The translations under genes and the position numbers were made by a program. Positions 21,327 to 24,487 of a stretch of DNA of 58,584 nt are shown piece after piece. The notes under the pieces were generated by a model. The model saw only the letters and a program-made list of their open reading frames with translations, was not told the DNA's origin and ran no database searches. Each line of letters starts with the position of its first letter. Position 1 is the first letter of the stretch. This DNA is from Thermoleophilia bacterium (GTDB lineage Bacteria > Actinomycetota > Thermoleophilia > BMS3ABIN01): assembly GCA_014859345.1 (NCBI GenBank), contig JACUUL010000007.1, forward strand, positions 1-58,584, given 5' to 3'.

Positions 21327-21746
21327 ATGAAGTTCTCTGCAAAGCTGATTTTATTGATAATAGCCGTTCTTCTGGCTCTGCCGGTTATGGCGGGGGCCAT
21401 GTGTCCCGGAGATGATGAAGAGGAGGCACCGCCGGATGAGGTCATGACCGACACGGTTCCTGAAGCTCCAGCCGATCCCCCGCCGATATTTACTCCCGTC
21501 TCCGTCGAGGTGTCCATCTCCGGCTTAAATTACGTTCCGGAGGAAGTCACTACCGACCGGGGTGCTACGGTCATTTGGACGAATAACGATTCAGTGGACC
21601 ACACCGTGACCGCTGACGACGCGAGCTTCGATTCCGGGACAATTAGCCAGGGGGAATCTTTTAAGTACATCTTCAACCAGTCCGGCTCTTATCCCTATCA
21701 TTGCGCCATCCATCCCGAAATGACGGGTATGGTTACCGTCAGGTAG
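21327..21746 (+). CDS. cupredoxin (plastocyanin/azurin-like), secreted lipoprotein
   Basis: This 139-residue protein has a signal peptide of about 24 residues ending M-A-G-A-M-C, compatible with a lipobox, then an acidic/proline linker. The cupredoxin domain at about 55-139 has type 1 copper ligands: His in V-D-H-T-V, then Cys, His and Met in Y-H-C-A-I-H-P-E-M. It is an exported copper electron carrier. The Shine-Dalgarno CAGGAGGAAGG is strong. It follows the ferredoxin by 65 bp and precedes the Grx-TrxR fusion. Confidence 0.92.
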   Translation: MKFSAKLILLIIAVLLALPVMAGAMCPGDDEEEAPPDEVMTDTVPEAPADPPPIFTPVSVEVSISGLNYVPEEVTTDRGATVIWTNNDSVDHTVTADDASFDSGTISQGESFKYIFNQSGSYPYHCAIHPEMTGMVTVR

Positions 21747-21842
21747 AGGAGAATAAGAGGTTGGGGCAGATTCACTCTGCCGGTCGATGTCAGCGCGGCT
21801 GCCGCAGCCCTGCTGGCTAACCTGAATAGGTGGTGAAATTCC

Positions 21843-23042
21843 TTGACGTCGCCCGTAACTCTATACTCGACTCCCCTTTGACCGTACTGCATCCGGCTCA
21901 AGGATCTTCTCCGTGAGAGAGGAATAGAGTTCAAGGACGTCGACGTCTCGGCCGATATCGAGGCTCTCCTGGAAATGAAGGAGAAAACCGGCCGGAGCTA
22001 CGTGCCGCAGATCATGATCGGTGATGAGCACGTAGGCAGCTATGACGAGTTCATGCTCAGGGACGCCAGGGGAGAGATCGACCAGATGCTGGGCGTCCGC
22101 CGGGAGAAAAAGGCCGAGGCGGGACCGCCGGAATATGACCTGATAATCATCGGTGGCGGGCCCGCGGGGCTGACCGCGGCGGTTTACGCCGCCCGCAAGA
22201 ACATGAAGACCGTAATCGTCGCCGATCAGCTCGGGGGACAGCCCATGGTGACCTGGGGCATCGAGAACTATATGGGCTTCCAGTACATCACCGGACCGGA
22301 GCTGATGGAGAAGTTTGAGGAGCAGGCTGTCCAGTTCAGGATCGACCAGGAGGTGGGCCAGCCGGTCACGAAGCTCGAGCTGGACGGGCGCATGAAGAAA
22401 GTGACTACTGCCGACGGGCGGGTCTATTCGGGCCGAACGGTAATAATCGCTTCCGGCAAGCGTTCGCGGCAACTGGGCATTCCGGGTGAAAAGGAGTATG
22501 CCGGCTGCGGCGTCAGCTACTGCGCCACCTGCGACGGCCCGCTTTTTCGGGGCGAAGAAGTGATGGTCGCCGGGGGCGGCAACTCGGGCATGCAGGCGGC
22601 GCTGGAGCTGGCGGCCCTGTGCCCCCGGGTACACCTGGTTTCACTTACCGAGTTGAGCGGGGATGAAATCCTGGTTGACAAGGTCATGGCTGAAGAGCGC
22701 ATCAGCAAGCATATCCGGTGGCAGCCGGTCAGGATCGGCGGCAATACTTGTGTGGAATCGGCGACGATCGAGTCCGTTGAGAGCAGCGACCGGCTGGAGC
22801 TTGCCGTGAAGGCGGTTTTCATAGAGATCGGGCTGGAGCCCAACACCAGTTTCGCTGTCAATCTTCTGGAGCTCAACCGGCAGAAGGAGATCGTGGTCGA
22901 CTGCGAGGGCCGCACCGGCGTGGAGGGAGTCTTTGCAGCCGGCGACGTCACCCAGGTGCGCGACAAGCAGATCGTGGTGGCCGCCGGCGAGGGGGCCAAG
23001 GCAGCGTTGTCGGCGCACGAATACCTGCTTGGACAGAGGTAG
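21843..23042 (+). CDS. selenocysteine-containing glutaredoxin-thioredoxin reductase fusion (UGA read through)
   Basis: A conventional ORF begins only at ATG 21975 and yields a thioredoxin reductase with a headless glutaredoxin fragment. Reading upstream in the same frame gives a full glutaredoxin N-terminus from TTG 21843 (Shine-Dalgarno AGGTGGTGA, 6-nt spacing): V-T-L-Y-S-T-P-L-[UGA]-P-Y-C-I-R-L-K-D-L-L. The UGA at 21879-21881 sits exactly at the first active-site Cys, so the motif is U-P-Y-C. The rest is normal: cis-Pro V-P-Q-I and I-G-D-E-H-V-G-S-Y. The reductase has FAD I-G-G-G-P-A-G, redox C-A-T-C near 227-230 and NADPH G-G-G-N-S-G. Total 399 residues. A point mutation or sequencing error in a Cys codon is the alternative; selABCD lie outside the window. 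Confidence 0.75.
21905..21923 (+). promoter_or_regulatory. candidate bacterial SECIS hairpin
   Basis: Seven contiguous base pairs (21905-21911 with 21917-21923, one G-U) close a 5-nt loop CGUGA. The loop starts 31 nt after the UGA and has G at its second position. This fits the general bacterial SECIS rule of an apical loop roughly 16-37 nt downstream with a G in its first two bases. The pairing was worked out by hand, without energy calculation. Confidence 0.55.
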
Positions 23043-23155: not shown

Positions 23156-24487
23156 ATGGACCTGCGTGGCCATGCCATGAAGATTATCGAAGCGGCTCTG
23201 GCGGCCGTCGAGCCCGGGAAGCTGACCAGGCAGGCGCTCGCCGTTTCCGGGGGAGGTATCGATCTGGACGGCTACCGCCTCGATCTCTCCCGGGTACGCG
23301 ACATCTATCTGCTTGGCATGGGCAAGGCCGCCGCCACGATGGCGCGGGGGGCGGAATCGGTGCTGAAAGGCCGCATCTCGGCGGGCTTGGTGGTGGTCAA
23401 GGACGGCTATGGCGTGCCCGGGCTGAAGTTCACCGAGGTTGTCGAGGCGGCGCATCCTTTGCCCGAGGAAAGGAACATTGCGGCCGCGCGCCGCGTCCTC
23501 GAGCTGGCCGAGCGGGCGGATGAGGACAGTCTGGTGATATTCTTGGTTTCCGGCGGCAGCTCGGCTCTGCTGACGCTGCCGGCTCCCGGAGTCAGCCTCG
23601 AGGACCTGCGCCGGGTCACCGAGGCGCTCCTGAAAAGCGGCGCCGCCATCGGCGAGATCAACGCGGTGCGCAAGCACATAACCGGGGTCGGAGGGGGCCG
23701 GCTGGCCGCGGCGGCGGCGCCGGCGCGGGTGTTGACTCTGATCGTATCCGATGTCATCGGCGACCGGCTTGATGTCATCGCCTCCGGACCAACGGTGCCC
23801 GACCGGAGCACTTTCGCTGAAGCCCTGGCTGTATTGCGTAAATACAATCTGTTTGATGAACTGCCTGAAATTATTCCGGCGCGCCTGCAGCAGGGAATAG
23901 CAGGGACCATCGACGAGACGCCCAAGCCGGGCGATCCGGTGTTTGCCCGGGCTCATGCGCGTATTATCGCCTCCAACCGGAACGCTGTGGATGCCGCGGC
24001 GCGGGCGGCGGGCGGTCTGGGTTATGAAGTAACGAGGATGAAGCCGCTGCTGGGAGAGGCGAGGGTCAGGGGCAAGGAGTTTGCCGAGCTGGTCCGGCGG
24101 CAGGAAGAACCGGGGAAACACGGTTTCAGGCCGGCCTGCGTCATAGCCGGCGGCGAGACCACGGTGGCGGTACGCGGTCCCGGCGCGGGTGGCAGGGCCC
24201 AGGAGTTCGCCCTGGCTGCCGCGCTGGAGATGGAGGGCCTCAGGAATTCGCTGATCTTCGGCTTCGGCACCGACGGCACCGACGGCCCCACTGAAGCCGC
24301 CGGCGCCTTCGCCGACGGAAGCACTCTGGCACGCGCCCGCGCCGCCGGACTGGACCCCGCCCGGCATCTGGCCCAAAACGACGCGTATCCACTCTTCGCG
24401 GCGCTGGATGACCTGATCGTCACCGGGCCCACGGGAACCAACGTGAATGATATCTACTGCGCGCTGATGCATAATCCCGATGCATGA
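23156..24487 (+). CDS. glycerate 2-kinase (MOFRL family)
   Basis: This 443-residue protein has the DUF4147 N-terminal domain with L-L-G-M-G-K-A-A-A-T-M near residue 55, F-L-V-S-G-G-S-S-A-L near 130 and N-A-V-R-K-H-I near 170. The C-terminal MOFRL domain has G-G-E-T-T-V-A-V-R-G-P-G-A-G-G-R-A-Q-E and G-T-D-G-T-D-G-P-T-E-A-A-G-A. It makes 2-phosphoglycerate from D-glycerate with ATP. The ATG at 23156 or at residue 8 could be the start. It stands between the reductase fusion and adenine deaminase, with no functional link evident. Confidence 0.92.
   Translation: MDLRGHAMKIIEAALAAVEPGKLTRQALAVSGGGIDLDGYRLDLSRVRDIYLLGMGKAAATMARGAESVLKGRISAGLVVVKDGYGVPGLKFTEVVEAAHPLPEERNIAAARRVLELAERADEDSLVIFLVSGGSSALLTLPAPGVSLEDLRRVTEALLKSGAAIGEINAVRKHITGVGGGRLAAAAAPARVLTLIVSDVIGDRLDVIASGPTVPDRSTFAEALAVLRKYNLFDELPEIIPARLQQGIAGTIDETPKPGDPVFARAHARIIASNRNAVDAAARAAGGLGYEVTRMKPLLGEARVRGKEFAELVRRQEEPGKHGFRPACVIAGGETTVAVRGPGAGGRAQEFALAAALEMEGLRNSLIFGFGTDGTDGPTEAAGAFADGSTLARARAAGLDPARHLAQNDAYPLFAALDDLIVTGPTGTNVNDIYCALMHNPDA

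Follow-up and report, generated by a model that had tools for sequence, protein, structure and literature searches.

The window, by which we mean the whole stretch of 58,584 nucleotides that was analysed, carries between a cupredoxin gene and a glycerate 2-kinase gene a frame that joins a glutaredoxin (Grx) domain to an FAD-dependent disulfide reductase (Table 1). This frame contains one in-frame UGA, at codon 13, with the codons for P-Y-C directly after it, and is otherwise open until the TAG at 23040-23042. Translated with the UGA as selenocysteine (Sec), it reads MTSPVTLYSTPL-U-PYC... and has 399 residues. No ATG, GTG or TTG other than the TTG listed as the start occurs from the preceding in-frame TGA (21834-21836) up to the Sec UGA, and the position aligned to this TTG is GTG or ATG in some relatives, with GGAGG ahead of it. 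A re-reading of the sequence reproduced all coordinates that an earlier note on this DNA had stated, as well as the TTG start with a Shine-Dalgarno-like sequence upstream of the UGA that the note had proposed. Its claim that the UGA takes the place of the first Cys in a glutaredoxin active site was borne out when the UGA was read through, as the Pfam Glutaredoxin model (PF00462) then matched with 68.3 bits against a curated cut-off of 22.9 bits, with an active site of the CPYC type that is here U-P-Y-C. The note had also anticipated that routine annotation would shorten the protein to 355 residues, and this is the length of the ORF started by the ATG at 21975 (21975-23042), the choice expected from standard gene calling.

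Table 1. Features of the Sec-glutaredoxin/reductase gene and its neighbours in the window
Feature	Position	Strand	Remarks
Secreted cupredoxin (plastocyanin/amicyanin-like), upstream neighbour	21327..21746	+	Present at 15/16 loci
Shine-Dalgarno-like AGGTGG, 9 nt ahead of the TTG start	21828..21833	+	Inferred from sequence
Whole gene: predicted Sec-glutaredoxin / AhpF-type disulfide reductase fusion	21843..23042	+	399 aa if the UGA is taken as Sec
TTG start codon	21843..21845	+	Start assigned from sequence, inferred
Glutaredoxin domain, Pfam PF00462, residues 5-64	21855..22034	+	E=6.7e-19; fold reaches about residue 83 (AlphaFold secondary structure)
UGA codon 13, predicted selenocysteine, residue 1 of the U-P-Y-C active site	21879..21881	+	Cys in the distant fusions L033-L036 and L065-L069
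Resolving Cys16 of U-P-Y-C	21888..21890	+	
SECIS-like hairpin UCUUCUC-CGUGA-GAGAGGA, 7 bp, loop CGUGA	21905..21923	+	Loop 30 nt from UGA
Flexible linker, residues 86-95	22098..22127	+	AlphaFold, pLDDT below 50 at 86-94
FAD/NAD(P)H disulfide reductase domain, Pyr_redox_2, residues 98-399, AhpF-like	22134..23039	+	
Reductase active site C227-A-T-C230	22521..22532	+	Both Cys invariant in alignment A2
Glycerate 2-kinase (DUF4147/MOFRL), downstream neighbour	23156..24487	+	Present at 8/16 loci

The fusion was found in 16 of the 19 genomes of the family, all of the genomes compared being draft or metagenome assemblies, and its proteins from five genera share approximately 60-66% identity with the window protein; the genomes in which it was not found (G003, G004 and G008) are 69-89% complete. 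All 16 copies display UGA at the catalytic codon and never another stop. Fifteen of them have an open frame with the UGA and the motifs UPYC, UPHC or UPFC, so that relatives devoid of the glutaredoxin domain, which the earlier note had named as evidence against its reading, did not turn up: the relatives have the domain in frame. Meanwhile, more distant fusions from families f3 and f5 of the same class have Cys at this position (CPYC or CPFC). Since the UGA is shared by relatives, a misread TGC or TGT is disfavoured. Around the UGA, 14 distinct homologues displayed a synonymous divergence of 0.56 and a nonsynonymous divergence of 0.24, with pS above pN in 90 of the 91 pairs compared. On either side of the UGA, purifying selection at the protein level thus acts on the codons that precede the ATG at 21975.

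These observations bear on the reading of the UGA as a real stop or an error in a decayed or mis-assembled gene, whose functional protein would be the 355-residue reductase that standard gene calling yields. That errors or decay occur among these copies is evident from the sixteenth one (L025, G006:C5:4779-5915, minus strand), which kept the UGA and has a separate one-base insertion shortly past it, just before the loop of the SECIS hairpin, that breaks the frame. This insertion is probably an assembly error, with recent decay as the alternative. A stop or an error in the window gene is nonetheless highly improbable given that the codon is always UGA, precisely at the catalytic Cys, in 16 genomes of five genera, and that selection acts on both of its sides. 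Furthermore, the ATG at 21975 encodes Met45, a conserved residue of the Grx domain that falls within a helix of the Grx fold (residues 39-49 in the AlphaFold model), so that the short product would have half a domain. The same residue weighs on a dual-product scheme, in which the Sec enzyme is made when selenium suffices and translation otherwise stops at codon 13, with some restarting downstream to give a reductase devoid of Grx. The very early position of the UGA and the in-frame ATG at codon 45 suit this scheme, and re-initiation after early termination is mechanistically possible; yet Met45 is conserved as a Grx residue and a protein cut within the Grx fold is probably unstable, and we deem a dual product improbable.

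The hairpin begins at the 24th nucleotide past the UGA and has a loop of 5 nt with G as its second nucleotide and an energy of -7.6 kcal/mol with short flanks. The bSECIS model given in a 2026 review (PMC13188914) describes a loop of 3-9 nt, a stem of 4-16 bp, a G within the first two loop positions, a distance of 16-37 nt from the UGA and an energy of at most -7.5 kcal/mol. The window hairpin agrees with this model on every point, while some relatives miss the energy limit. Across 14 homologous hairpins, 93.9% of cells were paired and three pairs displayed two-sided changes. None of 500 shuffles scored as high for pairing or for covariation (counts that are not probabilities, because the sequences are related), and all slid controls paired less. 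RNAalifold found the identical stem unprompted. In addition, TCCGT (CCGU) is invariant among the homologues, and CGT accounts for only 8% of the Arg codons in nine window genes. Two of the 14 hairpins (L024 and L029) folded poorly, a few (L031, L026 and L028) had one mismatch, and Rfam gave no relevant match at the hairpin. The fit to the model together with the covariation upholds the suggestion of the earlier note that the hairpin is consistent with a bacterial SECIS element.

The host genome (2.08 Mb in 122 contigs, rated 100% complete) possesses the machinery for decoding UGA as Sec, and the search for selA, selB, selC and selD that the earlier note had called for found all of them. The tRNA-Sec lies on contig C38 (72 bits, ARAGORN anticodon TCA) and is adjoined by selB (366 bits against a cut-off of 242). 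The ORF next to selB (L009:5017-6468) is presumably selA, which we recognised from its sequence and not by profile search; selA, selB and tRNA-Sec form one cluster. On contig C13, selD (L060, G000:C13:13022-13954, minus strand; 384 bits) has an in-frame UGA of its own within ...GAGUACKIS..., where GUACK is the classic motif of Sec-containing SelD; judging by this motif, SelD is itself a selenoprotein. Within the family, selB was found in 18 of the 19 genomes, the exception (G017) being 85% complete and in 260 contigs. Separately, a TlpA-like lipoprotein of the host (L084, G000:C16:2695-3054, plus strand) has an in-frame UGA at its active site (SSW-U-ASC), and its paralogue L083 has CAPC instead. 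L084 is thus a candidate for a second selenoprotein of the thioredoxin (Trx) fold in this genome.

Could UGA have been reassigned throughout the genome, for instance to Trp or Gly? Nothing was found in favour of this, and its chance is negligible: in the relatives G001, G003 and G007 the stand-alone Grx genes stop at a TGA right behind the domain, the frame of the fusion is itself bounded by a TGA ahead of its start, and a dedicated Sec tRNA, SelA, SelB and SelD exist. The same stand-alone genes are Cys proteins (CRFC) with an ordinary TGA stop, as the one of G002 is a Cys protein (CRYC), and the tblastn rows with one TGA from G001, G003 and G007, candidates for extra Sec-Grx copies in the family, turned out to be the terminal TGA of these Cys proteins. 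Based on the conservation of the UGA and on the use of TGA as a stop, sequencing error, pseudogene and UGA reassignment were rejected.

What the computations show is that the UGA in the catalytic position is conserved, that Sec machinery and a SECIS-like structure are present, and how the domains are ordered. We propose that this is very likely a selenoprotein gene in which a Sec-Grx is fused to a reductase of the AhpF/Cp34 type and the UGA at 21879 is decoded as Sec. Sec incorporation as such, to judge from sequence, is almost certain. The Sec fusion so predicted is a conserved family within one actinobacterial family and is not confined to the host genome.

The earlier note had called the second half a thioredoxin reductase (TrxR). 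A disulfide reductase is indeed fused to the Grx domain (Pyr_redox_2 at residues 98-384, E=4.6e-43); scores, structures and sequence motif place it closer to AhpF and to NADH-dependent reductases of the Cp34 type than to NADPH-dependent TrxR. The best-scoring model was AhpF (TIGR03140, 320 bits against a cut-off of 503), followed by TrxR (TIGR01292, 298 bits against 343). As both scores fall below their cut-offs, the domain is a full member of neither group. The nearest solved structures were AhpF by sequence (1hyu, 3.3e-67) and AhpF by fold (4o5q, 1.4e-34, over an alignment of 407 columns). The NADPH motif HRRxxxR is absent from the fusion, which has LVSLTELSGDE in its place, while the canonical TrxR of the host has IHRRAELRADK; by this motif and the TIGR01292 score, the fusion stands outside TrxR. 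It likewise stands outside AhpF, having a single Grx fold where AhpF has two tandem Trx folds, a score below the cut-off and, in the host, no AhpC-type protein among the matches to PF00578, but it may still act like AhpF. Thioredoxin glutathione reductase (TGR) does not describe it either, as the protein ends in ...YLLGQR, has no C-terminal Gly-Cys-Sec-Gly and scored 42 bits against 476 for TIGR01438. A search of a plasmid collection gave only distant AhpF-like matches. AhpF uses NADH. With AhpF and Cp34, both of which use NADH, as the natural models, the reductase half is probably NADH-dependent. The host also encodes its canonical TrxR together with a thioredoxin on contig C38, which makes the fusion a second system.

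The origin of the fusion is illuminated by genomes in which the two halves are separate. In other Actinomycetota (L071-L074 and L081), a Sec-Grx gene is followed by an adjacent, separate gene for an AhpF/Cp34-like reductase, and in L072 and L074 the ATG of the reductase lies directly 3' of the Grx stop. An unfused Sec-Grx near a reductase gene also occurs on a Dehalococcoidia contig (L053:244-462). Such split pairs suggest that the halves act jointly. A tree built on the reductase domain placed the Sec fusions in one clade (support 100/99) and the Cys fusions in another (100/100), the latter together with L037, whose two parts are out of frame. In this limited sample of the wider tree, Sec and Cys fusions fell together on one side of a branch with a support of only 79/44, so that both may, but need not, stem from a single fusion event.

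The gene content of the host provided insights into how the enzyme may be supplied with electrons. No match to GSH-S_ATP, hence no glutathione synthetase, was detected in the host genome, and its sole GCS2 match is a carboxylate-amine ligase of the YbdK type (L086, G000:C105:16588-17427, minus strand). This gene content suggests that the host probably makes no glutathione, though it may obtain it by other routes or by uptake, and that the Grx domain probably receives its electrons from the attached reductase and not from glutathione.

An AlphaFold model of the fusion (pLDDT 77, pTM 0.52) displayed a Grx fold, a linker of low confidence at residues 86-94 and the reductase; it is a moderate model, in which the placement of the domains is not trustworthy and the geometry of electron transfer is beyond reach. 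We postulate that SelB with Sec-tRNA-Sec would decode the UGA, assisted by the hairpin, and that the product would be a 399-residue enzyme made of an N-terminal Sec-Pro-Tyr-Cys glutaredoxin, a short flexible linker and an FAD reductase of the AhpF/Cp34 type. NADH, or less likely NADPH, would reduce the FAD, which in turn would reduce the C227-x-x-C230 disulfide. The tethered Grx would then swing in and have its Sec13-Cys16 selenenylsulfide reduced, and the selenolate could reduce disulfides or substrates oxidised by peroxide. Neither glutathione nor a separate carrier would be needed. The preference for NADH and this electron path are likely.

As to what the enzyme reduces, one reading, compatible with Sec, is that of a compact AhpF that reduces a peroxiredoxin, in the manner of Cp34-Cp9 of Clostridium pasteurianum. 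Its closest reductase relatives are AhpF both in sequence and in fold, and Reynolds, Meyer and Poole (cited in PMC3720550) reportedly described in 2002, as their title has it, an NADH-dependent TrxR-like protein that together with a Grx homologue reduces AhpC. The search of the host genome (rated complete) with PF00578, however, returned no true AhpC, only TlpA-like proteins, L084 among them, and the thioredoxin of contig C38, and no natural substrate of the fusion was evident among these matches; we regard the compact AhpF as possible, though on the unlikely side. A "tandem Sec" model with MsrA as substrate of the Sec-Grx has no specific support, because the MsrA of the host is a Cys protein (GCFW) devoid of UGA at its catalytic site. 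The best lead to function is the cupredoxin neighbour, whose stop codon overlaps the start of the fusion gene in L025, but this is only guilt by association, and across a membrane. A link between the glycerate 2-kinase and the function of the fusion is doubtful. A more specific scenario, in which the fusion of an ancestral Sec-Grx/reductase operon within one actinobacterial family gave rise to an uncatalogued class of self-contained selenoenzyme, a glutathione-independent, NADH-driven Sec-Grx reductase that serves, with the cupredoxin, a disulfide pathway of its own connected with copper or oxygen, must be considered speculative and rather improbable.

A search of the openly available literature found no description of such a fusion, and none appears in a table of 119 families of prokaryotic selenoproteins (PMC13188914, 2026). 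The fusion is apparently uncatalogued and, given that its UGA and hairpin recur in 15 related genomes, very probably a real selenoenzyme. The gene is likely mis-annotated across all these genomes, with the loss of its catalytic domain. A natural series is now at hand, comprising Sec-Grx and reductase as separate genes, fusions with Sec and fusions with Cys, and it makes the benefit of Sec over Cys for a tethered relay directly testable within one polypeptide.

Among known systems, AhpF (TIGR03140; 1hyu and 4o5q) is reminiscent of the fusion in that a Trx-fold domain bearing a redox motif stands at its N-terminus and a linker connects this domain to a TrxR-like FAD/NAD(P)H core devoid of HRRxxxR. 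The fusion differs in having one classical Grx domain in place of two tandem Trx folds, Sec in place of Cys, 399 instead of 521 residues, a score of 320 bits against the cut-off of 503, and no AhpC found. Animal TGR comprises a high-Mr reductase similar to glutathione reductase; its Sec lies in the C-terminal tail, and its Grx has Cys. Like TGR, the fusion has a Grx domain joined N-terminally to a disulfide reductase in a protein that contains Sec. The architecture is analogous only, as in the fusion the reductase is of low Mr and the Sec belongs to the Grx domain. The Cp34-Cp9 system of Clostridium pasteurianum, as cited in PMC3720550, likewise pairs an NADH-dependent TrxR-like reductase with a CP[YW]C glutaredoxin homologue; there the two are encoded by separate genes, with a Cys site and a peroxiredoxin in the operon, whereas here they are fused, with Sec and no adjacent peroxiredoxin. 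Stand-alone bacterial Sec-glutaredoxins (UxxC, PF00462), which the earlier note had rightly mentioned, appear in PMC13188914, which cites Kim et al. 2011. They too have Sec in place of the first active-site Cys, but are described as using glutathione, while the domain studied here is joined to a reductase and comes from a genome in which no glutathione synthetase was detected. The table of PMC13188914 also lists a Sec-containing homologue of the N-terminal domain of AhpF (TIGR02187). It resembles the fusion in that its Sec belongs to a Grx-like domain akin to the AhpF N-terminus, and is entered as a domain protein without fusion to a reductase core. To these systems the family described here adds a domain architecture in which a Sec-glutaredoxin and its flavin reductase make up a single protein.
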